DNA from: an uncultured Latescibacterota bacterium
Lineage (GTDB): Bacteria > Latescibacterota > UBA2968
Direction of reading: 5' to 3'
Length of the DNA: 64,000 bases
Assembly: GCA_951812755.1 (NCBI GenBank)
Contig: OX638329.1
Location: 5,278,522 to 5,342,521, forward strand
The notes under the pieces were generated by a model that saw nothing but the letters and a program-made list of their open reading frames with translations, was not told where the DNA came from and did no database searches. The translations under genes and the position numbers were made by a program. Positions within the stretch are counted from its first letter, which is position 1, and each line of letters opens with the position of its first letter. This document shows positions 289-20,606 of this stretch, one piece after another.

Positions 289-310
289 AGTGTTCTTCCA
301 CGATACAGTA

Positions 311-2017: not shown

Positions 2018-2035
2018 AAAATATCACCTCTCCCT

Positions 2036-2141: not shown

Positions 2142-2145
2142 CTCC

Positions 2146-2610
2146 CTATTTCAAAATATCCAAATCCAAAATTTTCTGCACATCGGCCTTCACCTGCGCG
2201 GGCACGCGAAACCGATAGCTTTTTCGTTGAGAAACAAGTTCCAAATCGCGCTCTGTGCGCCATACATATCTCGAAAAACGCTGCCAGGGCATGTAGCGCA
2301 TGCCCATCAGCAATCCGCGCTCACTCATAGTTACGCGAATAGTAGCATACGCAATATAAAAAAATTCGAGAGAAAGCAAAAAACCGAACAATTGCGGCAC
2401 GAGTCCCACGCCATCTGAGATCGCAGCTCCCCGAAACAGCACAATGCCCCCTGTCACAATCAAAAGCACATCCCATCGCTTCTGCAAAAAAACCACCACA
2501 GGCTCTTGCGTATTGGACACATGACGCCGCAACCGCCAATAGGCCACAATAGACGCGCCCAATAAAATAGGAGCGAGAATCAACACGATTTGTATGAGTG
2601 TCAAAGACAT
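2146..2610 (-). CDS. Small membrane protein, DUF5673-like
   Basis: A 154-residue protein with a hydrophobic N-terminal segment (residues 4-20), two further hydrophobic segments (about 48-60 and 68-86), and a soluble C-terminal part with the pattern ERGLLMGMRYMPWQRFSRYVW. That pattern resembles the DUF5673/PH-like tail of other small membrane proteins; the assignment is by eye. The ATG at 2610 lies 1 nt after the ubiE stop, so it is probably translationally coupled to ubiE. Function unknown. The protein from 63225 has a similar layout. Confidence 0.7.
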   Translation of the reverse strand: MSLTLIQIVLILAPILLGASIVAYWRLRRHVSNTQEPVVVFLQKRWDVLLIVTGGIVLFRGAAISDGVGLVPQLFGFLLSLEFFYIAYATIRVTMSERGLLMGMRYMPWQRFSRYVWRTERDLELVSQRKSYRFRVPAQVKADVQKILDLDILK

Positions 2611-2611
2611 A

Positions 2612-3379: not shown

Positions 3380-3422
3380 CAGCGTCGAAGCTCGCAATGG
3401 TTTTGGGCGGCGGGGACAATTT

Positions 3423-4301
3423 TTAATTCTTAATTGAATTACCCACCCGTTTGACAACGACATTTTTCATCACATCAGTCGGTGGCTCAACACCCGTCCA
3501 GATAGCAAAAGATCGCGCCCCTTGAAAGACCAGCATATCCAGTCCCCCAAAAGCCGGCGCACCAACCGATTGAAACGCGCGCATCAACTGCGTTTTCAGC
3601 GGATTGAACACCGTATCGTAGAGCACCAAATCCGGATGGACAGCGCGCACATCGGCAAGGGGCGAAGTATTGACCTCGGGATACATCCCCAGCGAAGTGG
3701 TATTCACGACCACACCCGCATCGGCAAACGCCCGGCATTGTGTATCGGCATCCGGCGCGCCCACATCCATTTTTGTACCCGTTATTTTTTCCATATCCAC
3801 TGCCAGAGCCTCCGCGCGCTTGATCGTGCGATTCAAAATCGTCACCCGCTGCACACTCTTTTGCGTCCCCAGCGCATACGTCACAGCGCGGGCCGCCCCA
3901 CCGGCACCGAGCACCACACAATGCGCGGGAAATGTCTCAATCCTCGCAATATCGCGCAATGCCGTCAAGACACCATAGACATCCGTATTGTATCCAACCA
4001 GTTCATCGTCTTCGCGCGAAATAGTATTAACCGCACCCACAGCCAGTGCTTCTTCTGATATGCGATCCATGTATTCCATCACCGCCAGCTTGTGTGGAAT
4101 AGTCACATTTAATCCGCGAATATTCAATCCGCGCAACCCCTTCATCGCCTCGCCCACGCGGTCGGGCAACACGTGAAAAGCCACATAACAATAATCCACA
4201 TCTAATGCGGCGATTGCGGCATTGTGCATATCGGGAGAAAACGAATGAGCCACCGGGTCACCAATAACGCCCAGCACCTGACTTGTCGCGCGAATATTCA
4301 T
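3423..4301 (-). CDS. aroE: Shikimate dehydrogenase
   Basis: NADPH-dependent reduction of 3-dehydroshikimate to shikimate. The 292 residues show the N-terminal shikimate-binding motif VIGDPVAHSFSPDMHNAA, the catalytic Lys in NVTIPHKLAV, GAVNTI, and the Rossmann loop LGAGGAARAV. The ATG at 4301 overlaps the stop of the preceding small gene as TGATG, so translation is probably coupled. A typical, intact AroE. Confidence 0.97.
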   Translation of the reverse strand: MNIRATSQVLGVIGDPVAHSFSPDMHNAAIAALDVDYCYVAFHVLPDRVGEAMKGLRGLNIRGLNVTIPHKLAVMEYMDRISEEALAVGAVNTISREDDELVGYNTDVYGVLTALRDIARIETFPAHCVVLGAGGAARAVTYALGTQKSVQRVTILNRTIKRAEALAVDMEKITGTKMDVGAPDADTQCRAFADAGVVVNTTSLGMYPEVNTSPLADVRAVHPDLVLYDTVFNPLKTQLMRAFQSVGAPAFGGLDMLVFQGARSFAIWTGVEPPTDVMKNVVVKRVGNSIKN

Positions 4302-4456
4302 CAAGACCTTCGATTGCTATCCAGCAAATCATTTACAAACTCATCGGCAATATCAAAACTTTCCTTCCACGAGCAGTTGTATGTATAGCGTATAAACACC
4401 ACACCGCCCAGAATTATCAAAATCGCAAATAGCGCGAGTTTAAAAAGTATTTTCAT
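4301..4456 (-). CDS. 51-aa single-pass membrane peptide
   Basis: The peptide begins MKILFKLALFAILIILGG, one strong transmembrane segment, and ends in a short charged tail with WKESFDIADEFVNDLL. Its ATG overlaps the stop of the truncated EPSP-synthase gene by ATGA, and its stop overlaps the aroE ATG by TGATG. This tight double coupling is the main evidence that it is translated. No family recognised. Confidence 0.6.
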   Translation of the reverse strand: MKILFKLALFAILIILGGVVFIRYTYNCSWKESFDIADEFVNDLLDSNRRS

Positions 4457-5112: not shown

Positions 5113-5122
5113 ACTTACCCCT

Positions 5123-6232
5123 CTAACGCAACCGCACTTGATAACCCGCATCTCGCAAAATATCGACAGACCGCCCGGCTTCCTCCTGCTGCCCAAACCC
5201 CATCCGAATCGTCCCCCCTTCGCCTTCGCGCACCTTCAGTACTTCAATATCTTCAATATTGATCCCCTCGGCAGATAGACGCGATGCAACATCGGCAATA
5301 ATACCGGGTTTGTCTTCTGCCACCAGCAAAATTTCATGAAGCGGGTGCAAAAACCCCTTGGAATCTCTGGGAATCTCCCCGCGAATGCGGTTGGCATAGT
5401 CAAAATCATCAGATAGTGCTTCTCGATCTACCTTCTCTCGTATTGCCGCAAGCGCGTCGAGATACGCATCGATCATCTCTCGAATAGGACCGGCATTGGT
5501 CTGACAAATATCCCGCCACATCGCAAATGGACTGGAGGCAATGCGCGTCAAATCGCGGAACCCGCCCGCTGCCATTTGCAGAGGGAGACCATCGGCCTCA
5601 TTGAGCCTGCCCACCAATCCCACGAGAGTGGTAGCCATCATCTGTGGCAAATGACTCACCGTTGCCGCGACCCGATCATGGGTCTCGGCCTCCATGCGCA
5701 TAGAACGCGCACCAATGCACTGCACCAGTGCTGCAAGCGCATCCACAATTTGACCGGGAACACCGCTTGCAGGCGTAAGCACATAAAGCGCGTTTTCAAA
5801 TAAAAAGGGATCGGCTGCACCCACGCCGCTATTTTCCGATCCCGCCATAGGATGCCCACCCACAAAATGGACCTCGTCACGCGCGACCCGCTCTGCACAT
5901 GCGACAATCGCGCCCTTGGTGCTACCCACATCTGTAATAATACAACCCGGCGAGGCCGCTTGCATGACCGCGGGTAACTGCTCCAGAATACGCACAATGG
6001 GCGAACATAAAAATACCAGATCTGACCGCTTTACGCCATTGTCCATCGCATCGTATTCATAGCCACTGTCAATCACACCGAGCGCACGGGCCTCTCGCAG
6101 GGTCTCAGCGCGGCTAATACCAATAATCTCGCGCCCAATACCCAATCGCTTAAACGCCAACCCCAGCGACCCACCAATCAACCCCACACCCACAATGGCA
6201 ATCGCGGCATCTCTAAATGGAGGATCGTTCAT
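5123..6232 (-). CDS. tyrA: Prephenate/arogenate dehydrogenase with ACT domain
   Basis: Oxidative decarboxylation on the route to tyrosine. The 369 residues hold an N-terminal Rossmann domain (IVGVGLIGGSLGLAF, residues about 12-26), the family motifs DVGSTKG, GGHPMAGSE and HLPQMMA, and a C-terminal ACT domain starting near residue 300 (LVAEDKPGIIADVASRL), which probably binds tyrosine for feedback control. The ATG at 6232 is chosen to match the family start. It follows aroF by 26 nt and precedes the half-EPSP-synthase gene by 10 nt. Confidence 0.94.
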   Translation of the reverse strand: MNDPPFRDAAIAIVGVGLIGGSLGLAFKRLGIGREIIGISRAETLREARALGVIDSGYEYDAMDNGVKRSDLVFLCSPIVRILEQLPAVMQAASPGCIITDVGSTKGAIVACAERVARDEVHFVGGHPMAGSENSGVGAADPFLFENALYVLTPASGVPGQIVDALAALVQCIGARSMRMEAETHDRVAATVSHLPQMMATTLVGLVGRLNEADGLPLQMAAGGFRDLTRIASSPFAMWRDICQTNAGPIREMIDAYLDALAAIREKVDREALSDDFDYANRIRGEIPRDSKGFLHPLHEILLVAEDKPGIIADVASRLSAEGINIEDIEVLKVREGEGGTIRMGFGQQEEAGRSVDILRDAGYQVRLR

Positions 6233-6258
6233 ACAAATAACCTGTACTACATAAAGTA

Positions 6259-7284
6259 CTAAACCAGACCTGCCAATTCCTTCACAAAAACTTCCGTATC
6301 TTCCCACCCCAGGCACGGGTCAGTAATCGACTTCCCAAATATCCCCTCTTCGGGTTTTTGCGCGCCCTCCTCCAGATAACTCTCCACCATCAACCCGCGC
6401 ACCACATTGTGAAGCAGCGCGGAATGGCGGCGGCTGCGCATCACCTCAAGACCAATGCGCGGCTGTTCGGAGAACGTTTTATCTGAATTGTTGTGATTGG
6501 TATCCACAATAATCGTCGGATTGCTCAACTTCCGCGCCACGTATTGCTCGGCAACATGCACCAAATCCTCATAGTGATAATTGGGGATGCTTCGCCCATT
6601 ATACGACATCCCGCGCAACACCGCATGCGTCAGCGGATTGCCCGACGTACTGACTTCCCAACCGTTGTGAAAAAATACATGTGGCATTTGTGCGGCATAA
6701 ACGGCATTGAACATCACATCCAAATCCCCACCCGTTGGATTTTTCATACCTGCAGGCACATCGACACCGCTAATGGTCAGACGATGGTTCTGATTTTCAA
6801 CAGACCGCGCGCCCACGGCAATATAACTCAGCAAATCCTCCACATAAGGCAAATTCGAAGGATAGAGCATCTCATCGGCAGCCGTCAAATGCGCCTCGCG
6901 AAAAGCGCGAATTTGCATCTGCCGAATGGTCTTAATCCCAACAACCATATCGGGCATACCTTCGGGATCGGGCTGATGGGCCATGCCCTTATACCCTTCG
7001 CCAGTCGTGCGCGGCTTATTGGTATAAATCCTCGGCACGAGCACCAATTTGTCCATCACCTGCTCTTGAAGCCGCGCCAGGCGATTCACATATTCACACA
7101 CCGCATCGACATCGTGCGCCGAGCAAGGACCAATAATCAACAAAAACTTATCGCTCTTGCGCTCAAAAATAGCCCGAATCTCGGCATCGCGTTCATCCTT
7201 CTTAGCCTTCAAATCATCGGGCAGAGGCAAAACATCCTGGATTTCTTCTGCACTGGGAATGGGCTGAATCCGCTTGAAACTCAT
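6259..7284 (-). CDS. aroF: DAHP synthase, class I (AroF/G/H type)
   Basis: Condenses phosphoenolpyruvate and erythrose 4-phosphate, the first step of the shikimate pathway. The 341 residues contain LLIIGPCSAHD, RIYTNKPRTTGEGYKG, KNPTGGDLD, and the metal/substrate segment IVDTNHNNSDK, all typical of class I-alpha enzymes. The ATG at 7284 has AAGGAAA upstream. Feedback specificity (Phe, Tyr or Trp) cannot be told from the sequence by eye. The gene overlaps nothing and follows the chorismate mutase by 13 nt. Confidence 0.96.
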   Translation of the reverse strand: MSFKRIQPIPSAEEIQDVLPLPDDLKAKKDERDAEIRAIFERKSDKFLLIIGPCSAHDVDAVCEYVNRLARLQEQVMDKLVLVPRIYTNKPRTTGEGYKGMAHQPDPEGMPDMVVGIKTIRQMQIRAFREAHLTAADEMLYPSNLPYVEDLLSYIAVGARSVENQNHRLTISGVDVPAGMKNPTGGDLDVMFNAVYAAQMPHVFFHNGWEVSTSGNPLTHAVLRGMSYNGRSIPNYHYEDLVHVAEQYVARKLSNPTIIVDTNHNNSDKTFSEQPRIGLEVMRSRRHSALLHNVVRGLMVESYLEEGAQKPEEGIFGKSITDPCLGWEDTEVFVKELAGLV

Positions 7285-7297
7285 GATAAATATTTCC

Positions 7298-7621
7298 TTA
7301 GATTGTCTCCCCATTCCTATCAGGAAGGGGGCTGGGGGGTAGGTCATCTTTCTCTGCGTGATCTTCTTCCAACCGCAGAGACTCATCGATAATCTGTCTA
7401 AAAATGCGTTGCGCTGCTTCGTGACTCAAAGGACCGCCATTCAATTCGCGAATGCGGTTGAGAATCAGGGTTTCTCGTTCGGGGGCATGCAGGGGCAAAT
7501 CCTCGGCATGCTTAATTTTTCCCACAGACAGCGCATACCGGGCACGCTCATTGAGCAACTCGAGAATCTGATCATCTAAGGCATCAATTTTCTCGCGCCA
7601 GAAATCCAGATCCCTCTCCAT
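7298..7621 (-). CDS. Chorismate mutase, AroQ class
   Basis: Converts chorismate to prephenate. It is a 107-residue all-helical AroQ-type domain: LDFWREKIDALDDQILELLN, then RYALSVGKIK, then PERE and a final helix FRQIIDESLRLEE. Catalytic-type residues (Arg in ERARYA, Lys in VGKIK, Glu/Gln near the C-terminus) are at the expected positions. The last 15 or so residues (DDLPPSPLPDRNG) are encoded by the dispersed palindromic repeat at 7309-7344 and are not part of the fold. Spacing to trpA is 3 nt. Confidence 0.9.
   Translation of the reverse strand: MERDLDFWREKIDALDDQILELLNERARYALSVGKIKHAEDLPLHAPERETLILNRIRELNGGPLSHEAAQRIFRQIIDESLRLEEDHAEKDDLPPSPLPDRNGETI
7309..7344. repeat. Palindromic repeat inside the 3' end of chorismate mutase
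   Basis: Same family as 2104-2141: an interrupted stem around CCATTCCT and AGGAAGGGGG followed by CTGGGGGGTAGGT. Here it supplies the last codons of the chorismate mutase gene, so its insertion extended the reading frame. Confidence 0.7.
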
Positions 7622-7624
7622 AAC

Positions 7625-8428
7625 CTACACACCTTCTCTCAAAGGGCCGATCAAAGACCCGACAAAAGCACCGACCTTTGAAACCAGATCGACATCGTTT
7701 TGGTATTCCCCCACACGACGTACAATCGCGCTACCAACCACAACCGCATCGGCATATCGCGCAATTTCGGATACATGCTCAGGCGTTGAAATACCAAATC
7801 CAACGGCAATCGGCATATCTGTGTACTGGCATATCGCAGACACCTTACTTTGAATTTCATCCGCCAGAGAATCGCGCTCTCCCGTCACCCCGGTGCGCGA
7901 CACATAATAGACAAAACCCCTTGTATGCGACGCAATCAGCCCCATCCGATCATCGCGCGTGGTAGGCGTCATAAGAAAAATCGTATCCAGCCCGTGCTCA
8001 TCCATCTGCGCTTTGTAATCGCCGCCCTCTTCCGGAGGCAAATCCAGCATCAGCACGCCATCTACCCCCACATCTGCGGCGCGTTTTACAAAGCACGCCA
8101 CACCGTAGCGATGAATCGGATTATAATACGTAAACAGCACAATGGGGATTTCGGTCTCAACCCGCAACTCTGCAACCATAGACAACACGCCCTCGAGCGT
8201 TGCACCTGCGGCCAAAGCGCGTTGTGACGCCTCCTGAATTACGGGGCCATCCGCCAGAGGATCGGAAAAGGGAACACCCAATTCCAGGACATCCACACCT
8301 CGCCGGTCCAATTCCAACACCACCTGATGCGTGGTATTTAAGTCTGGATCGCCCGCCGTAATATATGCGACGAACCCGGTCCTGCCCGCTTTTCTCAAAT
8401 CTTCAAACCGCCGTCCTATCCGCGTCAT
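7625..8428 (-). CDS. trpA: Tryptophan synthase alpha chain
   Basis: Cleaves indole-3-glycerol phosphate to indole within the TrpAB complex. The 267 residues include the catalytic Glu/Asp context [40 protein letters not shown] and VGFGIS. The ATG at 8428 overlaps the trpB stop as ATGA, the usual coupling for these two subunits. Confidence 0.98.
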
Positions 8429-9630
8429 CTCACTCCTTCCATAAACCGCGCCGCCTGTTGCACATCTTTGTCCCCGCGTCCCGACAAATTGACAACCACA
8501 ATCTGCTCTCGACTCATCTCTGGAGCCAACTTGCAAACATGGGCAATAGCGTGTGAACTCTCCAAAGCGGGAATAATCCCTTCGGTATGACTGAGCAGCT
8601 CAAAAGCACTGAGTGCTTCCTCATCCGTTGCATACGTATAAGTCGTGCGCGCCATATCTCGCAAATAACAATGCTCTGGCCCCACACCCGAATAATCGAG
8701 ACCCGCCGATACCGAATGCGTCAACGCGATTTGCCCATCATCATCTTGCAACACATAAATGCGCGCACCGTGCAAAACCCCCAAATCGCCACCATTAAAC
8801 CGTGCAGCGTGCTCGCCAGACTCAATACCGTGACCGCCAGCCTCCACACCGATCATCTGCACATCGGCATCATCCAAAAATGCGTGAAACAACCCGATAG
8901 AATTGCTTCCCCCGCCCACACAGGCGACGAGCACATCGGGCAATCGGCCCTCTCTCTCCAAAATTTGAGCACGAGTTTCAACGCCAATAACCCGCTGAAA
9001 ATCCCGTACGATCATCGGATACGGATGCGGTCCCAAAACCGAACCAAAGATGTAAAACGTATCCTCCACATTGGTCACCCAGTCGCGGATGGCCTCATTA
9101 ATCGCATCTTTCAGCGTTTTGCTACCCGAATGGACGCCCGTAACTTTCGCTCCCAAGAGCCGCATGCGAAACACATTGAGCGCTTGCCGTTCCATATCTT
9201 CAACACCCATGTAAATCTCGCATTTGAGACCGAACATCGCCGCTACAGTTGCCGTTGCCACGCCGTGTTGCCCGGCACCTGTCTCGGCAATAATCCGCGT
9301 TTTACCCATCCGGTTGGCGAGCAAAATCTGCCCCATGGCATGATTGATTTTATGCGCCCCCGTATGGGCGAGGTCTTCGCGCTTGAGATAAATTTTAGGC
9401 CCGCCGAGTTCTTCTGTCAACCGCTCGGCAAAATAAAGCGGCGTGGGCCGCCCGACATACTCGCACAAGTATCGATCCAGTTCAGCCCAAAATTCCGGAT
9501 CGCGCTTTGCCTCCCGATAGGCTGCCTCCAGGTCTTCCAAGAGTGCCATAAGCGTTTCGGGCACATACTGCCCACCATAAGGCCCAAAATGCCCGCGCGC
9601 ATCGGGTAAATCACTCGCGTTTACAGCCAT
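8425..9630 (-). CDS. trpB: Tryptophan synthase beta chain
   Basis: PLP-dependent joining of indole and serine. The 401 residues show [11 protein letters not shown], the PLP lysine in [13 protein letters not shown], the catalytic-loop [10 protein letters not shown], and the phosphate-binding GGGSNSIG. The ATG at 9630 follows AAGGGGAT. Start and length match TrpB1-type enzymes that work with TrpA. Confidence 0.98.
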
Positions 9631-9643
9631 ATTGTATATCCCC

Positions 9644-10621
9644 TTAAACATCCCCAACTACCCGATCGTAAAATGCCAAATACTGCTCGCGGTCATCACC
9701 ATCGAGCAATTCCATTGCCTCGCGGGGATGCTGGTTGTGCTGGCCGGTGATGTTATAGGGCACCAGAGGTCCCCACGTCATTTCGCTGCGCAACCTGACA
9801 AAATGCTCTTCCAGCAACTTATAGACGGGACGAATTTTAAACTTGGGATTCCGCAAAAAACCGAGCAACAATTCCATGGGACAATTGCCAGCACCGCGCC
9901 CCAATCCATCCACTGTGGCATCGACCCGATTAGCCCCTAAAATAATGGCCTCAATAGTATTGGCAAATGCCAGTTGCTGATTATTGTGCGCGTGAATACC
10001 CACCTCTTTGCCCGAGCCTTTGGTCGCTTCCATGTATTTTCGCACGAGCATATCAACCTGCTCGCGGTACAGAGCACCAAAACTATCCACAACGCAAATC
10101 GTACCCACAGGGGTTTGAATCAAAACTTCTAATGCCTGATCAATCTCGACATCTTGCACAGTCGAAATCGCCATAATATTACAACTCGTTTCATACCCCT
10201 TCTCATGAGCATCGAGCAACATTTCGACCGTCTCGGGAATCTGCTCAACATAACACGCCACGCGCACCATATCGACCACACTCTCGCTGGCTGGCAAAAT
10301 ATCTTGAGCCCAATCGCTCTTGCCCGCATCGGCCATAATTGCGAGTTTCATCCCCGTCGCTTCTGGGTCGTGATCCCCGGTAATTTTGCGAATATCCTCT
10401 TCATCGCTGTGGCGGAACGCACCAAAATCTCCTTTGGGGAACATCTCCTTGGAGTTTCGATACCCAATCTCCATATAGTCAACGCCCGCCGCGACACATG
10501 TTTCATACACGGCTTTCACAAAATCATCATCAAAATGATGGTCATTCATCAAACCGCCATCGCGGATCGTACAATCGAGTACTTTGAGTTCCGGACGGTA
10601 GGTAATCCAGGGTGCTTTCAT
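9644..10621 (-). CDS. HMGL-like aldolase family protein
   Basis: A 325-residue TIM-barrel protein of the HMG-CoA lyase / 4-hydroxy-2-oxovalerate aldolase superfamily. The N-terminal metal motif reads [16 protein letters not shown], and the distal metal-binding segment reads [15 protein letters not shown], followed by [17 protein letters not shown]. The substrate is not known, and this lineage of the family is usually left as an uncharacterised aldolase. It sits between tyrS and trpB, 13 nt before trpB, so it is co-transcribed with aromatic genes. The ATG at 10621 follows AAAGGA. Confidence 0.8.
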
Positions 10622-10648
10622 AAAAAAATCCTTTCTTGATAAGCGAAA

Positions 10649-10725
10649 CGCAACCACCGATGAACACAGATGAACACGGATTGTTATTATTCTTCCGAAT
10701 CTGCGTTTATGCGTGTTCTTATGTG
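10649..10725. repeat. Imperfect inverted repeat (ATCTGCG family)
   Basis: Between tyrS and the aldolase gene lies an imperfect inverted repeat of about 31 bp per arm. The left arm starts AACCACCGATGAACACAGAT and the right arm ends with its near complement GTTCTTATGTGGTT. It belongs to the family built of GATGAACACA/ATCTGCG words that also appears at 19454-19490, 30745-30780 and 35312-35347. No coding function is seen. Confidence 0.7.
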
Positions 10726-10761
10726 GTTCCAAATGATTTTAGAAATTAAAGGCAGTCTCAA

Positions 10762-12024
10762 TCACACCGACCACCTCACCAAAAAGTAGCGGCGTTTACC
10801 GCGGCGCATCACCAGATATTTTCCAGCCAGTCTTTCAGAAGGCTCTAAGATATGGGCCATATCTGTACACCGTTGCCCATTGATATAAATCGCACCAGTC
10901 CCGATATCTTCGCGGGCTTGTCGCCTGGACGATGAAATCCGCGCATCCACGAGCAAATCGATCAAACCCACTTCATCGGCACCATTGAGCGCGTAAGACG
11001 GCACATCGCTAAACCCTTCTGCGATCTCCTGCTCATTTAAATCCTGCAAATTGCCGTAAAACAGTGCCTCGGAAATATGCACGGCGCGTGCTCTTGCATC
11101 TGCACCGTGGATAAATGTCGTCACCTCTTCGGCCAGCACGCGCTGTGCCTCGCGCTTCTCGGGCCGCGCCTCCACTTCCCGTTCCAATGCCTCTATGCGT
11201 TCACGGCTCAAAAAAGTGAACAACTTTAAAAATTTCACCACATCGCGATCTGCTGCATTCACCCAAAACTGATAAAATTGATAAGGCGATGTCTTCTCGG
11301 GATCGAGCCATAATGTTCCCGTCTCGGTCTTCCCAAACTTTGTCCCATCCGACTTTTCCAGCAACGGGAAAGTCAACCCATACACAGTCTTATTGAGCAT
11401 GCGCCGACACAATTCTATGCCCGCCGTAATATTGCCCCACTGATCGCTGCCCCCGACCTGAAGCTCACAACCATACTCCCGGTTCAACTCCATAAAATCA
11501 TACGCCTGCAAAACCATATAACTAAATTCAGTAAAAGAAATCCCGGTTGAAAGACGCGACGACACCGACTCTTTGCCCAGCATATACCCCATTGAAAAAT
11601 GTTTGCCCACATCGCGCAAAAATTCAATCGTACGCAACTCTGAAAGCCAGGTATGATTGCTCACCATCAGCGCCGAATTGTGTACAGCCTCAAAGTCCAG
11701 ATACTTTTCCAATTGCACGCGCTGGCTCTCGGTATATGCCTGCACCACCTCCAGTGAATTCAACTGGCGCTCTTCTGCTTTCCCGCTCGGATCGCCGATC
11801 AATCCCGTACCACCGCCCACGAGAGCAATGGGCTTGTGTCCCGCATCTTGAAAGCGACGCAAGCCCATAATAGGAACCAGACTGCCCGCATGCAGACTAT
11901 CGGCTGTGGGATCAAATCCGCAATACAATGTCATCTGCCCCTCTGCCAAACGCCTGCGGAGCTTATCTTCATCTGTCATCTGAAAAATATAGCCACGAAA
12001 TGCCAAATCGTCTAATACATCCAC
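10762..12024 (-). CDS. tyrS: Tyrosyl-tRNA synthetase
   Basis: Charges tRNA-Tyr. The 420 residues contain the class I HIGH-type motif (DPTADSLHAGSLVPI), GGGTGLIGDPSGK, the tyrosine site YMVLQAYDF and VGGSDQWGNI, a KMSKS-type loop KFGKTETG and a C-terminal S4 RNA-binding domain (residues about 350-420). The start is GTG at 12024, with GGAGAT upstream; an ATG 4 nt further in is out of frame. Placing tyrS in the operon ties tyrosine charging to the same leader that carries Tyr codons. Confidence 0.96.
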   Translation of the reverse strand: MDVLDDLAFRGYIFQMTDEDKLRRRLAEGQMTLYCGFDPTADSLHAGSLVPIMGLRRFQDAGHKPIALVGGGTGLIGDPSGKAEERQLNSLEVVQAYTESQRVQLEKYLDFEAVHNSALMVSNHTWLSELRTIEFLRDVGKHFSMGYMLGKESVSSRLSTGISFTEFSYMVLQAYDFMELNREYGCELQVGGSDQWGNITAGIELCRRMLNKTVYGLTFPLLEKSDGTKFGKTETGTLWLDPEKTSPYQFYQFWVNAADRDVVKFLKLFTFLSRERIEALEREVEARPEKREAQRVLAEEVTTFIHGADARARAVHISEALFYGNLQDLNEQEIAEGFSDVPSYALNGADEVGLIDLLVDARISSSRRQAREDIGTGAIYINGQRCTDMAHILEPSERLAGKYLVMRRGKRRYFLVRWSV

Positions 12025-12045
12025 GTTTTTATCTCCATATTCACA

Positions 12046-12654
12046 TCACGCCTTTACGCGCGCCAAAAAATCTCTCACTTTTTTGTGATCCTTCTTCCCC
12101 GGCTCGGCTTCTACGCCACTACTCGCATCCACCGCATAGGGACCAACTCGCTCAATCGCCTCCCGAATATTATCCGGATTTAGCCCACCGGCAAGAATAA
12201 TGCGCCCATACCCTTTTGCCTCCACCGCCTTTGTCCAGTCAAATGTCTCCCCCGTACCGCCGTAAAAACCCGCTCTCTCTGTATCCAATAAGAAGGTATT
12301 GACCAGATATGATCGCATAATCTGCACATCAAAATCACATCCCACGCGAAGCGCGCGAATCACAGGAACCGCATGCCCCAGACATGCTTCGGGAGGTTCA
12401 TCCCCGTGCAATTGAATCGCCCGCAACCCCGCCAACTTCACGGCAATATCAATCTCCCGCTCCGACGCATTCACGAACACCCCGACGGGCGTCACAAACG
12501 GCGGTAAATCAAAAACAATTTCTCCGGCTTTCTCGGGCGCGATATAGCGAAGACTCTTCTCGTAAAAATTAAACCCCAGAGCATCAGCGCCATTATCAAT
12601 CGCACACAACGCATCATCCCGATTTGTAATCCCGCAAATTTTAGCTCGTACCAT
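12046..12654 (-). CDS. trpF: Phosphoribosylanthranilate isomerase
   Basis: Amadori rearrangement in tryptophan synthesis. The 202 residues start MVRAKICGITNRDDA with the catalytic Cys (KICGIT), then GADALGFNFY, VGVFVN, LHGDEP, LLDTE and LAGGLNPDN. The ATG at 12654 lies inside the end of trpC (14-nt overlap, different frame), consistent with coupled translation. Confidence 0.96.
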   Translation of the reverse strand: MVRAKICGITNRDDALCAIDNGADALGFNFYEKSLRYIAPEKAGEIVFDLPPFVTPVGVFVNASEREIDIAVKLAGLRAIQLHGDEPPEACLGHAVPVIRALRVGCDFDVQIMRSYLVNTFLLDTERAGFYGGTGETFDWTKAVEAKGYGRIILAGGLNPDNIREAIERVGPYAVDASSGVEAEPGKKDHKKVRDFLARVKA

Positions 12655-13435
12655 GCCCAATCAACTCCTGCAACTTGGCGGCAATATCCGGTTCGCGCAT
12701 CAAACTCTCGCCCACCAGCACCGCATCTGCACCCGCATCTCGAAGTGCGACAACATCCTCGCGCGTATAAATACCACTCTCACTCACCGTCAACACGTCA
12801 TCGGGAATGTGATCGATCAACCCATAAGTCGCATCCAGAGACGTATCAAAAGTTTTCAAATTTCGATTATTAATCCCAACAATCTCCGCACCCGCATCGA
12901 GCGCGACCATCAGTTCTTCTCTCTCATGCACCTCCACCAGCGCATCCAGACCCAGCGCACGGCTCGTCGCTATAAATGAGGACAATTCTTCGGGCGTTAA
13001 AATCGACACAATCAACAACACAGCCGAAGCCCCAATCGCGCGCGCCTCGTAAATCTGATAGGGATCAATCGTGAAATCCTTTCGCAAAACGGGCCGATCA
13101 ACAACTATTGAAATCTGAGTTAAATAATCCACCGAACCCTGAAAAAATTTCTCATCCGTCAATACCGAAAGCGCCGAAGCCCCATTTTTCACATAAATTT
13201 TCGCAATACCCACCGCGTCAAAATCCCCGCGAATCACGCCCTTAGACGGCGATGCCTTTTTCACCTCGGCGATCACCGCAATATCATCCCCATCTACCAG
13301 CCCATCAAAAAACGAAGGCGGTTCCAGCGCTTCTTCCGCCAACTGCGCCATTTCCTCAAATGGCGTCTGCGCCATACACCTGGCGAGAAACTCGCGTTTA
13401 TACGCCACAATCTTGTCGAGAATACTGCTGGCCAT
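12641..13435 (-). CDS. trpC: Indole-3-glycerol phosphate synthase
   Basis: Ring closure of CdRP to indole-3-glycerol phosphate. The 264 residues show IAEVKKASPSKG (catalytic Lys and Glu context), SVLTDEKFFQGS, PVLRKDFTIDPYQ, GINNRNLKTF and SESGI. Length and order are standard. It lies 24 nt downstream of the oxidoreductase gene that separates it from trpD. Confidence 0.97.
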   Translation of the reverse strand: MASSILDKIVAYKREFLARCMAQTPFEEMAQLAEEALEPPSFFDGLVDGDDIAVIAEVKKASPSKGVIRGDFDAVGIAKIYVKNGASALSVLTDEKFFQGSVDYLTQISIVVDRPVLRKDFTIDPYQIYEARAIGASAVLLIVSILTPEELSSFIATSRALGLDALVEVHEREELMVALDAGAEIVGINNRNLKTFDTSLDATYGLIDHIPDDVLTVSESGIYTREDVVALRDAGADAVLVGESLMREPDIAAKLQELIGHGTS

Positions 13436-13459
13436 AAAATCCCACCATCCTCAGATAGA

Positions 13460-14524
13460 CTAAAACCACGACCGCGGGTCGGGAACAGACACCCATCCAT
13501 TTTCGCGCACTGCCTGCAACCCCGCAATACCGGGCAGTGTCATATCCAGTGCCTGCATCAAATCTATCGGCGGTGGCGAGCCATTCACAATAGCCCGCAC
13601 AAAATCCAAAACAATGAGCATACTCGTTTTGCCATGCCCTGCGCCGAGCGCGTCCGAAAACTGGAATAACTCGGGATGGTGACATTCTTCTCGCGTCACT
13701 TGCGCCTTATCGCCCAGAGAATAATAACACACCGTTCGGGCTTCGCGAAATCGCCCCGTCTCTAAAGAACCCTCATCGCCATAAAAGCTCAAGAAATGAC
13801 TCATCCCGTGCACATTCTGAAACGAATTGGTCAACCTGAACACCGCACCTTCTTCGGTTCGGAACAAAGCCGTCTGCACCCAATCTGCTTCATATCCTTC
13901 TAAAAATTCATCTCGCCCCGAAGCCGAAACAGCCATGACCTCAACCAAACGGTCACCCGTCATATTCAAATACGGCGACGTCCCATGTGTCGGATAAAGA
14001 AGGGGTTGCAGACTATTCCGCCAGGTGAGCCGCCCATCGGGATGTCGCCTCAACGCTTTTAGGCCGTGAATATACTCGGCCTCGGCATAGTAAATACGCC
14101 CCAGTTTCCGCGCTTCATAAAGCGACCTGGCACGCACCACACTGGGTTCATAAACCCAATTCTCCGCCATCATATAAATGCGGTCACTTTTTGAAACGAC
14201 CTCGACCAATGCCTTTGCTTCATCCATAGTCAGCGCAGCGGGCACAGCACACAAAACGTGCTTACCGGCCCGAATCGCGCGAATCACATGTTCTGCATGA
14301 AGCGGCGCGGGAGTAAAAACAGCCACCGCGTCAATTCGCTCATCAGCGACCAAATCATCAAAAGCCGCATAACAAGCATCGACACCTAACTGCTCTTTTG
14401 CCTCGTCCAGTTTCTCCTGCTGAATATCACAAACAGCGACCAAATCAGTCTCGGCATACGCATCAAACACCCGCGCCCAGGACATGCCAAATCGCAAACC
14501 CGCAACACCTACCGAAAGACCCAT
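13460..14524 (-). CDS. Gfo/Idh/MocA-family oxidoreductase lacking the EKP motif
   Basis: A 354-residue protein with an N-terminal Rossmann fold (VGVAGLRFGMSWARVF, residues 5-20), AVCDIQQEKL, and the family's C-terminal alpha/beta domain. The family normally has an EKP motif after GKHVLC that supplies a catalytic lysine; here it reads GKHVLCAVPAALT, so Glu and Lys are gone. NAD(P) binding is likely but classical dehydrogenase chemistry is doubtful. It is embedded between trpD and trpC with 23-24 nt spacers. The substrate is unknown. Confidence 0.8.
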   Translation of the reverse strand: MGLSVGVAGLRFGMSWARVFDAYAETDLVAVCDIQQEKLDEAKEQLGVDACYAAFDDLVADERIDAVAVFTPAPLHAEHVIRAIRAGKHVLCAVPAALTMDEAKALVEVVSKSDRIYMMAENWVYEPSVVRARSLYEARKLGRIYYAEAEYIHGLKALRRHPDGRLTWRNSLQPLLYPTHGTSPYLNMTGDRLVEVMAVSASGRDEFLEGYEADWVQTALFRTEEGAVFRLTNSFQNVHGMSHFLSFYGDEGSLETGRFREARTVCYYSLGDKAQVTREECHHPELFQFSDALGAGHGKTSMLIVLDFVRAIVNGSPPPIDLMQALDMTLPGIAGLQAVRENGWVSVPDPRSWF

Positions 14525-14547
14525 TTTACCTCACTCCATCTCGAAAA

Positions 14548-15561
14548 TCATTCCTGGCTCGCTTCTTTCAACCCTTCCAACTTCTCCAACGCCTTGCCCG
14601 AATCAATCACTTCAGCCGCGACCTGCACACCTTCGTTCAAATCACGCGCCTTATCTCCCGCTACAATTGCCGCCGCCGCATTCAACAGCACAATATCGCG
14701 CCGAGGACCTTCTTCACCATTCAGAATCGACCGCGTAATCTCTGCATTATAATCGGCATCCCCGCCTTTTAGCGCGTCGGCTGTGGCTTGCGCCAGCCCA
14801 AAGTCCCCAGGTGATACTTCATACGTCGAAACCGATCCAGCCTTCAATTCGCTCACCCTCGTCGGACCTGTCAGCGTCATCTCATCCAAACCATCCGAGC
14901 CGTGAACGACAAACGCGTGCTCCGATCCCAGAGTCGCCAAAACACCCGCGAGTGTCTCGGTCAATGCCGCGCTGTACACGCCGACCACCTGCCGCTTTGC
15001 GCCCGCCGGATTGCTCAGTGGCCCCAGCGCATTGAAAATTGTCCGCGCACCAATTTCCCGACGCGGCCCAATCGCATATTTCATCGCCCCGTGCAATGAA
15101 ATAGCAAATAAAAACCCGATACCCACATCGTCCAAACACCTGCTCACCGTCTCGGGCGATGCTTCAATATTCACACCCAATGCACCCAGCACATCCGCGC
15201 TACCGCTTTGACTCGTCGCCGCGCGATTGCCGTGTTTGGCCACACACAAACCCGCCCCAGCCGCGACAAATGCCGCCGTTGTCGAAATATTAAACGTGCC
15301 CGAATGATCGCCCCCCGTGCCACAAGTATCGACAATCACATCGTGCTTTGTCACAATAGGCGTCGCCTTCTCCCGCATCACAGACGCCGCTCCAGCAATC
15401 TCATCAACACTCTCGCCCTTCATGCGCAACGCAATCAAAAACGCGCCGATCTGCGCATCCGTCGCCTCGCCCGACATAATCTGATTCATCGCATCCGTCA
15501 TCTCACCTCGGCGCAAATCTTTGCCTTCGATCACTTTTGCAATCGCCTCTTGTATATTCAT
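14548..15561 (-). CDS. trpD: Anthranilate phosphoribosyltransferase
   Basis: Transfers phosphoribose from PRPP to anthranilate. The 337 residues contain [18 protein letters not shown] (PRPP/Mg binding), [22 protein letters not shown] and LGPLSNPA. Two ATGs are possible (15567 and 15561). The second is preferred because GAGGAG then sits 6 nt upstream instead of touching the start. It ends 23 nt before the oxidoreductase gene. Confidence 0.97.
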
Positions 15562-15611
15562 ACTCATCTCCTCACACAGTCAAATTCACTGTATCGCAAA
15601 TTCCAATGACA

Positions 15612-16250
15612 TTATCCAGCAAACAACCTCTGCAACCAACTGACAAACGCTCCCGCAATTGCCGTATCAGGCTTTAAAACTTGTGCTGTAATTGATTGCC
15701 CTAATGGTTTGCCGGGTTCATCTTGCCAGGCCAAATACGTATGAACCACCGCTTTTGATTGATGCACATCTTTGAAGGTGGCAAATGATTTTTCTTTCGC
15801 TTTCATCACACAGTGCTCTGCAAATACAATCGCATCATCAGGTGCAAGTTGCCGACAAAAATCCTCTAACATACCCGGATCAACGTTATTTGGCATCATC
15901 CAAAAACCAAGACGCGGCATATCTTCAATGGCTTCGACAATTGTTCCGTCAAGTTCCGGTGCATCCGGCAAATTATGATAATTTGATAGTTTACCCCGGA
16001 TACTCTGCCAGCGACCTTTGAGGTTGGTATCCGCGTCTATTACAACGCCGATAATTTCCATTTCAGGCCGTTGAATTAAAGCACTTAAGCGACTCAGTAA
16101 AATAGTATCAGATTCGCAAACATAGACACCAAATGTTTCCGGAACCTCATGTTTTTTACAAAGTGCCCAAATAACGTGGCAATCATCTTTTCCTTCTACC
16201 AGTAAGACTTTTGCGCCTTCGTGCTTATAATTGGGATTCGCCGTATTCAT
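15612..16250 (-). CDS. TOPRIM-like DUF3226 protein
   Basis: A 212-residue protein with the TOPRIM-type acidic motifs KVLLVEGKDDCHV (residues 14-26) and GVVIDADTN (about 68-76). That is the pattern of DUF3226/DUF4435 proteins, which act as nuclease-like partners of ABC-type ATPases. It starts at the last base of the ATPase stop (TGATG), so the two are a coupled pair. Both are read within the trp operon but have no link to tryptophan chemistry. Inferred role: effector half of an ATPase/TOPRIM defence-like module. Confidence 0.75.
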   Translation of the reverse strand: MNTANPNYKHEGAKVLLVEGKDDCHVIWALCKKHEVPETFGVYVCESDTILLSRLSALIQRPEMEIIGVVIDADTNLKGRWQSIRGKLSNYHNLPDAPELDGTIVEAIEDMPRLGFWMMPNNVDPGMLEDFCRQLAPDDAIVFAEHCVMKAKEKSFATFKDVHQSKAVVHTYLAWQDEPGKPLGQSITAQVLKPDTAIAGAFVSWLQRLFAG

Positions 16251-17383
16251 CAGCGAACCTCGACGTCTGCGATAATAGCGTCTTGCAACACATTGAGATC
16301 GTAATAAGTTGCTTTGACACGTTCCCCTTTGATGTCTAAGCGGAAAAAGGTGCCCTCATCCAGGTGTTCTCTCCAAGCGACCTCAAACCCCCGGATACAA
16401 TCCCAACTATGCGTGGTCGCAAAAACCTGAACATTTAACTTTTTCGCCAGACGAAATACTATATCCCAAACTTTTGGATGAATTGTATAGTGCAAACCAT
16501 TTTCCAATTCATCAATCACCAAAATACCATCTCTCGCATTTACTAAAGAAAGGAGAATCTCAAATAAACGCAGGATACCATCGCCGAAAACTTGCAGAGA
16601 TAGCGGTTCTGAAACGTCACTGTGTTGAACCATAGGAATCCGAACCGTTGAACGCTGGTCTTCTTCTGCATCGACAAAAGAAAGTCTTTTTATTTTTGGC
16701 TCAATCAATTGCATTCCTGTAATGACCTCTGGTTCTAAACTCGTAAGCCCTGTTTTGTCCCAAAGAGATGCCAAGTCATTTGAATCTGTTGATTGGGCAA
16801 ATACAACTTGTATGGGATAACGACTATGATCGGACAAATGTGACAGTCTCATTAGATCGTTTAAACTTTTATCCAGATTAACAAGTCTGCGTGCTTGCCC
16901 CGCTTGTTCTAAAACGAGATACTTATCATAAAAAGAAATATCGTCAGGTGATATTTCTATATCCAGGGTCGTGAGGGGTTGAAAACCCCCTTTCGAGTTC
17001 GGCACCCTTCGAGCAATACCTTCTTCTGCCTGCACATAAATAGCTACGGTAAGATGGAAATGTTCTTCTTCTGACTTGCCAACCCGAATCCCCTCACTAT
17101 TCATTTCAGGCAATTTATGTCCATGAAACAAATGTCTGAGAACTTGCCCTGAAACAGTTTCATCAAAATGAGGCCGTTCCTTTGGAGACCAGTATTCCTT
17201 TCTCGAAAATATGAGATCGACAAATACACCGGGATCGGCATTGCTCGCATATAAGCGTATTGCCTCAAGCAACGCGCTCTTACCCGAACCATTTTTCCCT
17301 GCAATGAGATTTACCTGTCCCAATTTGGGAAGTTCGAGATGCTTAAACAGTCTAAAATTGTTGACATAGAAAGTTTTGAGCAT
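16250..17383 (-). CDS. AAA/ABC-type ATPase, OLD-like partner of TOPRIM protein
   Basis: A 377-residue ATPase of the SMC/RecF-like AAA_15/AAA_21 group. It begins LKTFYVNNFRLFKHLELP, has Walker A GKNGSGKS (about residues 30-37), a signature-like LQVFGDGILRLFE, Walker B ILVIDELENGLH and a switch His in FATTHSW. AGGAGGG sits 8 nt before the ATG at 17383. It is inserted between trpG and trpD. Base composition looks more A/T-rich than its trp neighbours, which suggests acquisition. The OLD/PARIS-type two-gene layout is the closest known analogy. Confidence 0.8.
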   Translation of the reverse strand: MLKTFYVNNFRLFKHLELPKLGQVNLIAGKNGSGKSALLEAIRLYASNADPGVFVDLIFSRKEYWSPKERPHFDETVSGQVLRHLFHGHKLPEMNSEGIRVGKSEEEHFHLTVAIYVQAEEGIARRVPNSKGGFQPLTTLDIEISPDDISFYDKYLVLEQAGQARRLVNLDKSLNDLMRLSHLSDHSRYPIQVVFAQSTDSNDLASLWDKTGLTSLEPEVITGMQLIEPKIKRLSFVDAEEDQRSTVRIPMVQHSDVSEPLSLQVFGDGILRLFEILLSLVNARDGILVIDELENGLHYTIHPKVWDIVFRLAKKLNVQVFATTHSWDCIRGFEVAWREHLDEGTFFRLDIKGERVKATYYDLNVLQDAIIADVEVR

Positions 17384-17398
17384 GGTTTCGCCCTCCTC

Positions 17399-17962
17399 TC
17401 ACGTATCGAGAAAATTTTGCAGCAAATTCTTACCCTCATCCGTCAAAATCGATTCGGGATGAAACTGCACGCCATCTACCGCCATATCTCGATGGCGCAA
17501 CCCCATAATCACGCCATCATCGGTCTCAGCCGTAATCTCCAGACAATCGGGAAGGCTGTCTCTCTCCACTATCAAAGAGTGGTAGCGCGTGGCAATAAAC
17601 GGATCGGGTAGCCCCTCAAAAATAGACTGCCCTCTATGATGAATCTCCGACACCTTCCCGTGCATAATTGTCGGCGCGCCCACAATTTTTCCACCAAATG
17701 CCTGCCCGATGGACTGATGCCCCAGACAAACCCCTAAAATCGGAATTTTCCCCGCAAAATGCTGTACCAAAGCCACGGAAATCCCCGCTTCATTTGGTGT
17801 GCATGGCCCCGGAGAAATGACGATCTTATCGGGCGCGATATCCGCAATCTCTTCAAGTGAAATTTGATCATTGCGATACACTACCAACTCTGCACCCAAT
17901 TCGCCGAGATACTGAACGAGATTGTAAGTAAAAGAATCGTAATTATCAATGATGAGAATCAC
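17399..17962 (-). CDS. trpG: Anthranilate synthase, glutamine amidotransferase subunit
   Basis: Supplies ammonia to TrpE; it may also serve PabA function. The 187 residues include [31 protein letters not shown], the nucleophile Cys in [11 protein letters not shown], and the C-terminal His/Glu in VQFHPESI. The start is GTG at 17962, overlapping the trpE stop as GTGA. Confidence 0.97.
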
Positions 17963-19434
17963 AACAACTCTCCTCCTTCAGCCATTTCTACCGCCCGAAA
18001 CAGTGCCCGCGCTTTGTTCACAGTCTCCTGATATTCGTATCCTGGCTCTGAATCAAACACCACGCCACCCCCTGCCTGCACATACGCTTTGCCATCCTTA
18101 ATCACCAGCGTGCGAATGGCAATACACGTATCCATATTGCCCGCAAAATCAATATAACCCACCGCACCGGCATAAGGCCCGCGCCGCGTTGGCTCCATCT
18201 CGTCGATAATCTCCATCGCCCGAATTTTTGGCGCGCCCGACACCGTGCCAGCCGGATAACAGGCAAAAAGCGCGTCCAGCGCATCGACACCCTCGTGCAA
18301 TTCGCCGCGCACATTCGAAACGATATGCATCACATGTGAATAGCGTTCAATCGTCATCTGCTCGGTCACGCGCACCGTATCAAACCTGGAGACACGCCCC
18401 ACATCATTGCGCCCCAAATCCACCAGCATAATATGCTCGGCGCATTCTTTTTTATCTGCCAACAAATCCTGTGACAATGCCCTGTCTTCTGCCTCTGTTT
18501 TGCCGCGCCATCGCGTACCCGCAATAGGCCTCACCTGCACCACCCCATCCTCTACCCTGACGAGCAACTCGGGCGACGCGCCCACGAGTTGATGGTCTAT
18601 CAAATCGACGTGAAACATATAAGGCGACGGATTCACTGTCCGCAACGCCCGATAAATATCCAGCGCATCCACCGTCACATCCATTGCAAAACGCTGCGAA
18701 GGCACCACCTGAAAAATATCACCCGCCACGATGTATTCCCTGCAACGCGCCACCACATCCATATACGCTTCTTTGCTCGTATTTGAAGTCACCTCGCACG
18801 AACTCGCTCCCGGCTTTAGGGACACATCCACCGGTTGCGCCAGTGCCTCAATCAGTGCGTCGATCCGCTTGACTGCATCCGCGTAATTCGCTTCCAGATC
18901 GCCATCTGTATGCACATTGGCCATCACATGCACTTTGTGTGTCACGTTGTCAAACGCCAGCACCGAATCGTAAAATGACAAAAATATATCGTCCAGACCG
19001 AGATCGTCTTCAACCGTCTCGGGAATGCGTTCAATCAAACGCACGGCATCGTAGCTCACATAGCCCACAGCACCGCCCGTAAATCGAGGAAACCCCTCCA
19101 CAGGTTGCGAGTGGTATTTTTTTAACAACCCGCGCAATACCTCAATAGGCTCCCCTTCTAATATTCGCAGCTCACCCGTCGCCGCATGTTCAATGAAAAT
19201 TTTTGTTCCACGCGAACGAAAGACCAAAAATGGATCCGCGCCCAAAAACGAATACCGCCCAATCTGCTCACCGCCCACCACGCTTTCAAACAAAAACGCG
19301 TGCGATGATCTGGCGCGAATTTTCAAATAGGCCGAAACGGGCGTCTCTGTGTCGGCGAGAAGTTCTCTTGAAATGGGAACCAGACCACAGCCTTCGCTCA
19401 ACTTCTTCACAGTTTTGAAATCGGGTTGAATCAC
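17959..19434 (-). CDS. trpE: Anthranilate synthase, large subunit
   Basis: Converts chorismate to anthranilate. The 491 residues include the feedback-site-type [14 protein letters not shown] (LLES-like region), QVVPSQRF, the chorismate-binding [27 protein letters not shown] and [10 protein letters not shown], and YAGAVGY. The GTG start at 19434 has AAGGA upstream. It is the first large gene of the operon, lying about 150 nt beyond the leader terminator. Confidence 0.97.
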
Positions 19435-19453
19435 TGGAAAATCCTTAAGTCAA

Positions 19454-19584
19454 ATCCGCAGATGGACGCAGATGGACGCAGATGAAAATGGACAAAAGCG
19501 GTTTACTGGCAGTGGCGGTGCGAGGAATCCTGTTCATCCTTTCATCCTGAAAATCCTGATCCGCAGATGGACGCGGATGAAAAG
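19454..19584. repeat. Dispersed repeats in the trpE leader
   Basis: Two repeat blocks sit between the attenuator and trpE. One (19454-19490) is GCAGATGGAC in tandem (ATCTGCG family). The other (19526-19584) carries the short words TTCATCCTTTCATCCTGAAA followed by another GCAGATGGAC unit. They lengthen the transcribed leader but show no start or conserved reading frame. Confidence 0.65.
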
Positions 19585-19623
19585 TCAAAAATAAAAAAGG
19601 TCGTGAGCAGTTTGCCCACGACC
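19585..19623 (-). terminator. Intrinsic terminator of the trp-operon attenuator
   Basis: On the minus strand a 10-bp stem (GGTCGTGGGC pairing with GCTCACGACC, one G-U pair, 5-nt loop) is followed directly by TTTTTTATTTTT. It lies 27 nt after the stop of the aromatic leader peptide and 150 nt before trpE, the classical position of a transcription attenuator. A GCCC stretch at 19682-19685 could pair with the GGGC of the terminator's 5' arm as part of an antiterminator; this pairing is only a suggestion. Confidence 0.88.
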
Positions 19624-19650
19624 TCGTACTTTCATTCACTTACATCACAC

Positions 19651-19755
19651 TTAACACGCAGGACAAACCACACTCTTGGACGGGCGGCGATAATAATAAT
19701 ATCGGCCGTCAAATCGACGCCAAAAATACCAGAAGTAGGTCGCAAAAGCGTTCAT
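19651..19755 (-). CDS. Aromatic leader peptide of the trp supra-operon
   Basis: A 34-codon reading frame with AAGGA 10 nt before its ATG. It begins MNAFATYFWYFWRRF and then carries four consecutive Tyr codons (19691-19702) before RRPSKSVVCPAC. In total it has 2 Trp, 6 Tyr and 4 Phe in 34 residues. Position (promoter, peptide, terminator, trpE) and composition match ribosome-stalling attenuation leaders. Unlike the classic trpL it would respond to all three aromatic amino acids, matching the trp/tyr/phe/shikimate content of the operon. Confidence 0.9.
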   Translation of the reverse strand: MNAFATYFWYFWRRFDGRYYYYRRPSKSVVCPAC

Positions 19756-19796
19756 CACATCAAATTCCTTAAACAAGAGTTATATCAGACGCGCCA

Positions 19797-19826
19797 AAGA
19801 TAACAAATTCTAAAACAAATTGTCAA
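19797..19826 (-). promoter_or_regulatory. Sigma-70-type promoter of the aromatic supra-operon
   Basis: TTGACA (19821-19826) and TATCTT (19797-19802), 18 nt apart, read toward the leader peptide. The expected start of transcription near 19790 gives a leader of about 35 nt before the peptide's ATG. It lies just past the lolD-like stop. Confidence 0.8.
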
Positions 19827-19835
19827 GAAGGAAGT

Positions 19836-20606
19836 TCACTCATGACCGTCAATCGTGCCCACCTCAATTTTCAACTCGTCGCGGTCAATAATGCGATCTA
19901 CGCGACCATCGCGCACCCACACCACGCGGTCGGATACCGACAGCATCTTGTGATCGTGCGTCGCTGAAATCACGGTCACGCCCGACTCCTCGTTCATCTG
20001 GCGCAACAACTCAATAATCTCCCGCCCCGTATTCAAATCGAGATTCCCAGTCGGCTCGTCAGCCAGAATAATTGCTGGATCGTTGGCAAAAGCCCGCGCA
20101 ACAGCCACGCGCTGCTGCTGACCGCCTGAAAGCTCAAAAGGCTTGTGCATCACGCGCTCGCCCAGACCGACCTGTGTCAACAATTCTACGCCCTTGTCGC
20201 GCGCCTCGTCGCTCGTCAGCCCGGCAAACACCATCGGCAAGGTCACATTCTCAAGCGCTGTCATCACCGGAATCAAATTATAAGATTGAAAAATATAACC
20301 GATCTTCCGGCAGCGCAACCACGCGAGTTCATAAGCGTCGAGTTGGGCGACATCTACATCGTCGATATAAACCTTGCCCTCGGTCGGCTTGTCCAATCCA
20401 CCTACCATATTAAACAAAGTACTCTTTCCCGAACCAGAAGGTCCCATGATGGACAGGTATTCGCCCTGCGTCACCTCCAGATCCACACCTTTGAGTGCGT
20501 GAATCTGCTCCTCGCCCATTATGTACACCTTCTTCACATCTTGTGTGCGTACAACAGTTGCTTCTTCGGCCTCGGCATTTGTTTCTGTTTTTTCTTCGGC
20601 AGCCAT
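19836..20606 (-). CDS. LolD/MacB-type ABC transporter ATPase
   Basis: A 256-residue nucleotide-binding protein with Walker [10 protein letters not shown], the Q-loop IFQSYNL, LSGGQQQRVAVARA and Walker [13 protein letters not shown], all of the LolD/MacB/FtsE class. It has an acidic 30-residue N-terminal extension (AEEKTETNAEAEEAT). GAGGT precedes the ATG at 20606. The gene follows its permease by 20 nt, so they form one exporter or mechanotransmission unit at the inner membrane. The substrate is unknown. Confidence 0.92.
   Translation of the reverse strand: MAAEEKTETNAEAEEATVVRTQDVKKVYIMGEEQIHALKGVDLEVTQGEYLSIMGPSGSGKSTLFNMVGGLDKPTEGKVYIDDVDVAQLDAYELAWLRCRKIGYIFQSYNLIPVMTALENVTLPMVFAGLTSDEARDKGVELLTQVGLGERVMHKPFELSGGQQQRVAVARAFANDPAIILADEPTGNLDLNTGREIIELLRQMNEESGVTVISATHDHKMLSVSDRVVWVRDGRVDRIIDRDELKIEVGTIDGHE

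Follow-up and report, generated by a model that had tools for sequence, protein, structure and literature searches.

A candidate leader-peptide attenuator with Trp and Tyr codons upstream of an aromatic biosynthesis and tyrS operon in Latescibacterota

The region upstream of trpE in the genome of a Candidatus Latescibacterota bacterium (a metagenome-assembled genome of 6.53 Mb in a single contig, labelled G000 among the genomes compared) very probably constitutes a classic ribosome-mediated transcription attenuator, which is predicted to control an operon for aromatic amino acid biosynthesis that also includes tyrS. Judging from the sequence, the charging states of tRNA-Trp and tRNA-Tyr are its likely inputs; that of tRNA-Phe is a possible input and represents the least certain step. 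For the leader as a whole, the interpretation that fits best is an ancestral Trp leader that gained a proximal Tyr cluster, not a sensor with three equal inputs. Coordinates refer to the window, i.e., the whole 64-kb stretch of DNA that was analyzed.

The leader frame and its surroundings

All elements lie on the minus strand, in the order promoter-like pair, leader frame, antiterminator arm within the final codons, terminator with U-tract, and trpE (Table 1). The promoter-like pair is present as originally predicted, with TTGACA (19826-19821) and TATCTT (19802-19797) separated by a spacer of 18 nt, a match to the consensus at 10/12 positions, and a TG preceding the -10 element. It falls between the leader and the upstream ABC transporter genes, which are on the same strand and stop ~80 nt before the leader start. 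The predicted 34-codon frame with a ribosome-binding site is likewise present in full, including 2 Trp, 6 Tyr (four consecutive), and 4 Phe codons. It could start at the ATG at 19755 or at an in-frame GTG at 19758, of which the GTG has the better spacing (7 nt) to the RBS-like AAGGA, and it stops at 19653-19651. This short ORF, predicted to be translated, precedes the biosynthetic genes to which its regulatory codons correspond. Among 2,095 start/stop combinations of 20 to 60 codons in the window, it is the only one in which 12 or more codons are aromatic and these make up a fraction of at least 0.35, and it alone has at least 2 Trp, 4 Tyr, and 3 Phe codons; a comparable frame arose in 9/5,000 shuffles of the 242-nt region.

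Two further features of the leaders deserve mention in their own right. A start-stop overlap, ATGTGATG (19753-19760, minus strand), lies just before and overlaps the leader ATG, and an ATG or GTG followed by TGATG is kept near the leader start in most members of the genus. Further, every leader is enriched in Arg codons (7 to 21% of residues), which flank the aromatic run; argS closes the cluster in most members of the class, and the leader Arg codons may represent a structural stem or Arg sensing. The stem around the aromatic run, often built of these flanking Arg codons, was no stronger than in synonymous-codon shuffles, and hence we make no claim for an aromatic-run hairpin.

Table 1. Features of the leader region and genes of the downstream operon (window coordinates)
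Feature	Coordinates	Strand	Remarks
Promoter-like pair TTGACA-N18-TATCTT	19797..19826	-	Consensus match only; similar pair 5' of leader in most genus members
Leader peptide ORF MNAFATYFWYFWRRFDGRYYYYRRPSKSVVCPAC	19651..19755	-	Position and aromatic content kept in 14 class genera and 2 outgroup families
Segment 2, antiterminator 5' arm UGGUUUGUCC	19661..19670	-	In leader codons Val-Val-Cys-Pro; pairs with 19617-19608
Predicted intrinsic terminator GAGGUCGUGGGCA-AAC-UGCUCACGACCUU with U-tract; segments 3 and 4	19597..19625	-	Terminator after leader in every aligned lineage
trpE, anthranilate synthase I	17959..19434	-	TIGR00564
trpG	17399..17962	-	GATase, PF00117
trpD	14548..15567	-	PF00591, PF02885
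trpC	12641..13435	-	PF00218
trpF	12046..12660	-	PF00697
tyrS	10762..12024	-	TIGR00234; only TyrRS found in genome
trpB	8425..9657	-	Named by sequence recognition and synteny in relatives
trpA	7625..8536	-	Named by sequence recognition and synteny in relatives
aroQ, chorismate mutase, 107 aa	7298..7621	-	TIGR01807; coordinates from translated frame; in apparent trpA-aroF gap
aroF, DAHP synthase	6259..7386	-	TIGR00034; start codon uncertain; overlaps aroQ as listed
tyrA, prephenate dehydrogenase	5123..6316	-	Follows aroF
aroE, shikimate dehydrogenase	3423..4304	-	TIGR00507

The downstream operon

The genes follow the leader in the order trpE-trpG-(AAA-DUF3226)-trpD-(GFO oxidoreductase)-trpC-trpF-tyrS-(HMGL-like)-trpB-trpA-aroQ-aroF-tyrA-(aroA part)-aroE-ubiE; beyond one more small gene lies argS. 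Neighboring genes overlap or are at most 50 bp apart, save around a 148-bp gap with a small ORF in it; what looks like a 238-bp gap between trpA and aroF encodes the chorismate mutase. We infer that the whole cluster is transcribed as one unit. The contiguity of the trp, tyr, and shikimate genes and the inclusion of tyrS are as first proposed; the length, starting at trpE, is ~17 kb when ubiE is taken as the last gene and ~19 kb if argS is counted, rather than the 20 kb given then. Two TrpRS genes, assigned by open-frame size and rank, are found elsewhere in the genome (C1:4057286 and C1:5010651), and the Trp repressor (PF01371) has no match in it.

The AAA ATPase and DUF3226 pair between trpG and trpD (15612-17383, minus strand) matches the PADLOC candidate defense models PDC-M38A and PDC-M38B; it is also found in G002 and G008 and is absent from G006 and other genera. 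The AroA-like ORF (4453-5196, minus strand; 247 amino acids) covers only positions 219 to 398 of the model, in relatives ~700 bp of additional sequence precedes it, and a full-length AroA (TIGR01356, 419.5 bits) is encoded elsewhere at G000:C1:2311994. This ORF looks like a truncated relic that has been kept in frame.

Terminator and antiterminator across relatives

The leader is conserved in about 20 relatives. At trpE it occurs in nine genera of families f1 to f3 and five of f4 (14 in the class), and also in two outgroup families of the phylum, f7 (G049) and f8 (G054); a scan of ~70 TrpE loci from other phyla under loose criteria recovered no comparable conserved leader. Comparison with relatives had been named beforehand as a test that could overturn the prediction, and the aromatic codons proved to be kept while almost all else in the leader changed. 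Outside the genus, little of the leader peptide is shared except for its aromatic and Arg residues; most members of f1 to f3 also share a Cys-Pro near the end, which is kept because its codons constitute the antiterminator arm.

The terminator hairpin with its T-tract before trpE also stands, with 13 pairs instead of the 10 originally described; it is closed by the loop AAC and followed by TTTTATTTTT. It is by far the best such site in positions 1-19850, where the other sites equal the shuffle expectation in number, and it lies between the leader ORF and the first structural gene, trpE, the start of which is ~160 nt beyond it. Within this spacer, G000 carries a repeat element, GGATGAAAGGATGAACAGGAT (19440-19590), which occurs at 14 places in the genome with at most 2 mismatches, as against none for the reversed control; most relatives in the genus have a terminator-trpE spacing of only ~20 nt, versus the repeat-bearing spacer of G000.

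The original prediction of a leader-peptide attenuator did not describe an antiterminator, and the sequence contains one: in G000, segment 2 pairs with GGGCAAACUG in the terminator 5' arm and loop. The 3' codons of the leader pair with the terminator 5' arm in every lineage, through sequences that differ in four groups, namely, TGCCC/GGGCA in f1 to f3, GCGTCC/GGACGC in f4, ACGTGTGCG/CGCACACGT in G049, and GGAGGGTATGCCC/GGGCATATCCTCC (with one G-U) in G054. The duplex energies of individual lineages relative to shuffles of segment 2 are weak (mean z of -1.3), and therefore we compared cognate with permuted arms. Across 16 genera, the cognate 2:3 pairings average -17.3 versus -12.8 kcal/mol for permuted ones, with a P of 5e-5 that is the limit of 20,000 permutations and is rendered optimistic by the relatedness of the genera. 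In the group means, B, C, and D each nevertheless pair best with the arms of their own group.

The geometry of these elements follows a common pattern. Segment 2 lies close to the stop codon, with its start ~8 to 15 nt ahead of it in most lineages and within ~15 nt in nearly all; the dominant codon (Tyr or Trp) is ~18 to 37 nt upstream of segment 2. When the ribosome was placed at each codon in turn and the RNA beyond it was folded (the mask model), the antiterminator was free with the ribosome on the aromatic codons and did not form with it at the last codons or the stop. The computed structures thus comprise a terminator and a mutually exclusive antiterminator, the 5' arm of which would be covered by a ribosome at the stop and free upon a stall at the regulatory codons. 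Lineages of f4 such as G045, G024, and G040 form the antiterminator only with the ribosome at or just past the Arg/Trp cluster. With no ribosome, a state in which a segment 1:2 hairpin would be expected to hold back antitermination, the antiterminator is near 0 in G000, G008, G045, G024, and others and high in G020, G021, G029, and G049.

From this arrangement, we infer a cycle of stalling, termination, and readthrough in which a ribosome would trail RNA polymerase through the leader frame. With ample charged tRNA-Trp and tRNA-Tyr (possibly also tRNA-Phe), it would reach the stop codon and cover segment 2, whereupon the terminator would form and transcription would end. Were one of these charged tRNAs scarce, the ribosome would stall on the distal Trp cluster (with Phe and Tyr) or on the proximal Tyr run, leaving segment 2 free to pair with segment 3 and allowing the polymerase to continue into trpE.

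Leader codons track the synthetase gene of the operon

The operons of f1 to f3 hold tyrS, and their leaders are Tyr rich (3 to 6 Tyr and 1 to 2 Trp codons), with Trp mostly 45 to 60 nt upstream of segment 2. These tyrS genes are of two types: outside the genus, one is 60 to 73% identical to the tyrS of the window and the other ~30%. The f4 operon, with the composition trpEGDC-trpS-aroQ-tyrA-aroA-aroE-argS, instead has Trp-rich leaders (2 to 4 Trp and 0 to 2 Tyr codons). The Trp and the Tyr shares of the aromatic codons are each without overlap between the nine f1 to f3 genera (G014 being included although its short contig ends before tyrS) and the five trpS-operon genera (P = 0.003 each), a test that is not independent across genera because trpS and tyrS operons diverged only once on the TrpE tree. 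The outgroup leaders of G049 and G054 are Trp dominated and therefore suggest an ancestral Trp leader to which Tyr codons were added.

Leaders at stand-alone synthetase genes provide independent support for this match between codon and synthetase. Stand-alone trpS genes of f2 have Trp leaders and terminators (G015, G016, G017, G018, and G020). Reciprocally, stand-alone tyrS genes of f4 have Tyr leaders in genus g13 (G037, G040, G041, G044, G034, and G025), genus g14 (G026, G030, G039, and G031), and possibly G043, which is less clear, with peptides such as MMQNLRADRHYYYTPFHRQG and MTMHTLHVYRYYYYTLSTRGV and with terminators (loci L182, L194, and L212-L215; L165, L169, L174, and L190). The second TrpRS gene of f1 is preceded by two Trp-rich frames in tandem, each followed by a terminator-like hairpin, as seen at L199 (G000:C1:5010500-5013000), L224, L226, L227, and L228. 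Among the synthetases for the third aromatic amino acid, pheS frames are ~516 to 600 amino acids long in f1 and f2 and mostly 338 to 426 in f3 and f4, which suggests that the class has two PheRS types.

Which amino acids are sensed

We tentatively propose, with somewhat less than even confidence, a trivalent attenuator in which two stall zones, distal Trp and proximal Tyr, would jointly read the charging of Trp, Tyr, and Phe. It would derive from an ancestral Trp leader in lineages where the operon holds tyrS and the sister family holds trpS, with Trp and Tyr leaders and synthetase genes reciprocally split between the aromatic operon and stand-alone loci and with Tyr as a bona fide regulatory codon.

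The inclusion of Phe is the part of this proposal under the greatest strain, and it is quite plausible, if short of probable, that the attenuator responds to Trp and Tyr only, with the Phe codons being fillers and Phe limitation not being sensed. The Phe share of the aromatic codons overlaps between tyrS- and trpS-operon genera without a significant difference (P = 0.19), prephenate dehydratase is encoded outside the operon, a search of relatives for Phe leaders before pheA and pheS returned none, and in most tyrS-type leaders it is Tyr, not Phe, that occupies the 18 to 30 nt before segment 2. Against such a restriction, Phe codons are more densely packed in tyrS-operon leaders than in most leaders of trpS operons, and the aroF, aroQ, and aroE genes of the operon serve Phe as well. 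Of the idea that one leader reads all three aromatic amino acids, the Trp and Tyr parts are supported, and the Phe part is not, by the codon shares or by the genes for Phe synthesis and charging.

The Trp codons can be questioned in turn. If only the proximal Tyr run acted in the present genus, the distal Trp would be a relic of the ancestral Trp leader; in favor of this, the G000 Trp codons are 51 to 60 nt upstream of segment 2, outside the range used by Trp-type leaders, and the mask model gives an antiterminator probability of 0.8 at the last Tyr codon and a partial one (0 to 0.7) at the Trp and early Tyr codons. We consider such a Tyr-only attenuator unlikely: nearly all tyrS-operon genera retain a distal Trp followed by Arg despite changes at other positions, the same model yields high antitermination at Trp too in G008, G014, G019, and G013, and trp genes lead the operon.

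Action in trans by the leader peptide or the released leader RNA, instead of or besides cis attenuation, has a precedent in what is described for peTrpL of Sinorhizobium (PMC7298713), which is all that favors it; it is highly improbable in light of a peptide that is largely rewritten between genera while its aromatic codons and the RNA pairing are kept, the pattern of a cis codon sensor. Finally, that an aromatic-rich frame merely chanced to lie next to the ordinary terminator of the ABC transporter operon that precedes it, as the proximity of those genes on the same strand might suggest, can be practically dismissed given the shuffle frequency, the class-wide conservation, the separate promoter-like pair, and the cognate antiterminator pairing.

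Relationship to known attenuators

At gathering score, no Rfam family matches the region, including the Trp operon leader, and permissive thresholds gave only weak chance matches to unrelated families; no Rfam T-box match was found upstream of trpE. Trp leaders are known before trp operons in Enterobacteria, Corynebacterium, and Streptomyces, and leader attenuators also occur before pheST and before trpS or leuS of Streptomyces, with tyrosine regulation being given as T-box in the same study (PMC1262725). Leader systems beyond Proteobacteria and Actinobacteria were rare as of a 2010 survey (PMC2965389). Supraoperons of trp and aro genes with predicted attenuators, including Vibrio aroA-tyrA, have been reported with the leader codons left undescribed (PMC1173090), and we found no precedent among the open-access papers searched for Tyr as a regulatory leader codon.

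The present system would bring leader-peptide attenuation into a phylum that lacks a laboratory model and make Tyr one of the regulatory codons of a multivalent aromatic leader. It also offers a natural experiment, in which the dominant leader codon shifts with the synthetase gene of the operon and the RNA switch persists, and predicts that one sensor integrates two or three of the amino acids made by a branched pathway.

Among the nearest known systems are trpL attenuators, which share the leader ORF before trpE, the alternative antiterminator and terminator, and the regulatory codons just upstream of segment 2; unlike these, the present leader also has a proximal Tyr run and Phe codons, its operon has tyrS, aroF, aroQ, tyrA, and aroE, and it lacks an Rfam match. 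The leader of ilvGMEDA is multivalent, with Ile, Val, and Leu codons, and similarly gathers into a single leader the codons for several amino acid products of a branched pathway; the present system differs in being aromatic and in having a tRNA synthetase gene in the operon. The ilvGMEDA operon is named among attenuated operons (PMC1183508). As a large trp/aro/tyrA cluster, the operon resembles the supraoperons mentioned above, some of which have predicted attenuators (PMC1173090). Like the leaders of pheST and of Streptomyces trpS and leuS (PMC1262725), it appears to place a synthetase gene under a leader with cognate codons, but here the gene is tyrS and Tyr is the regulatory codon.
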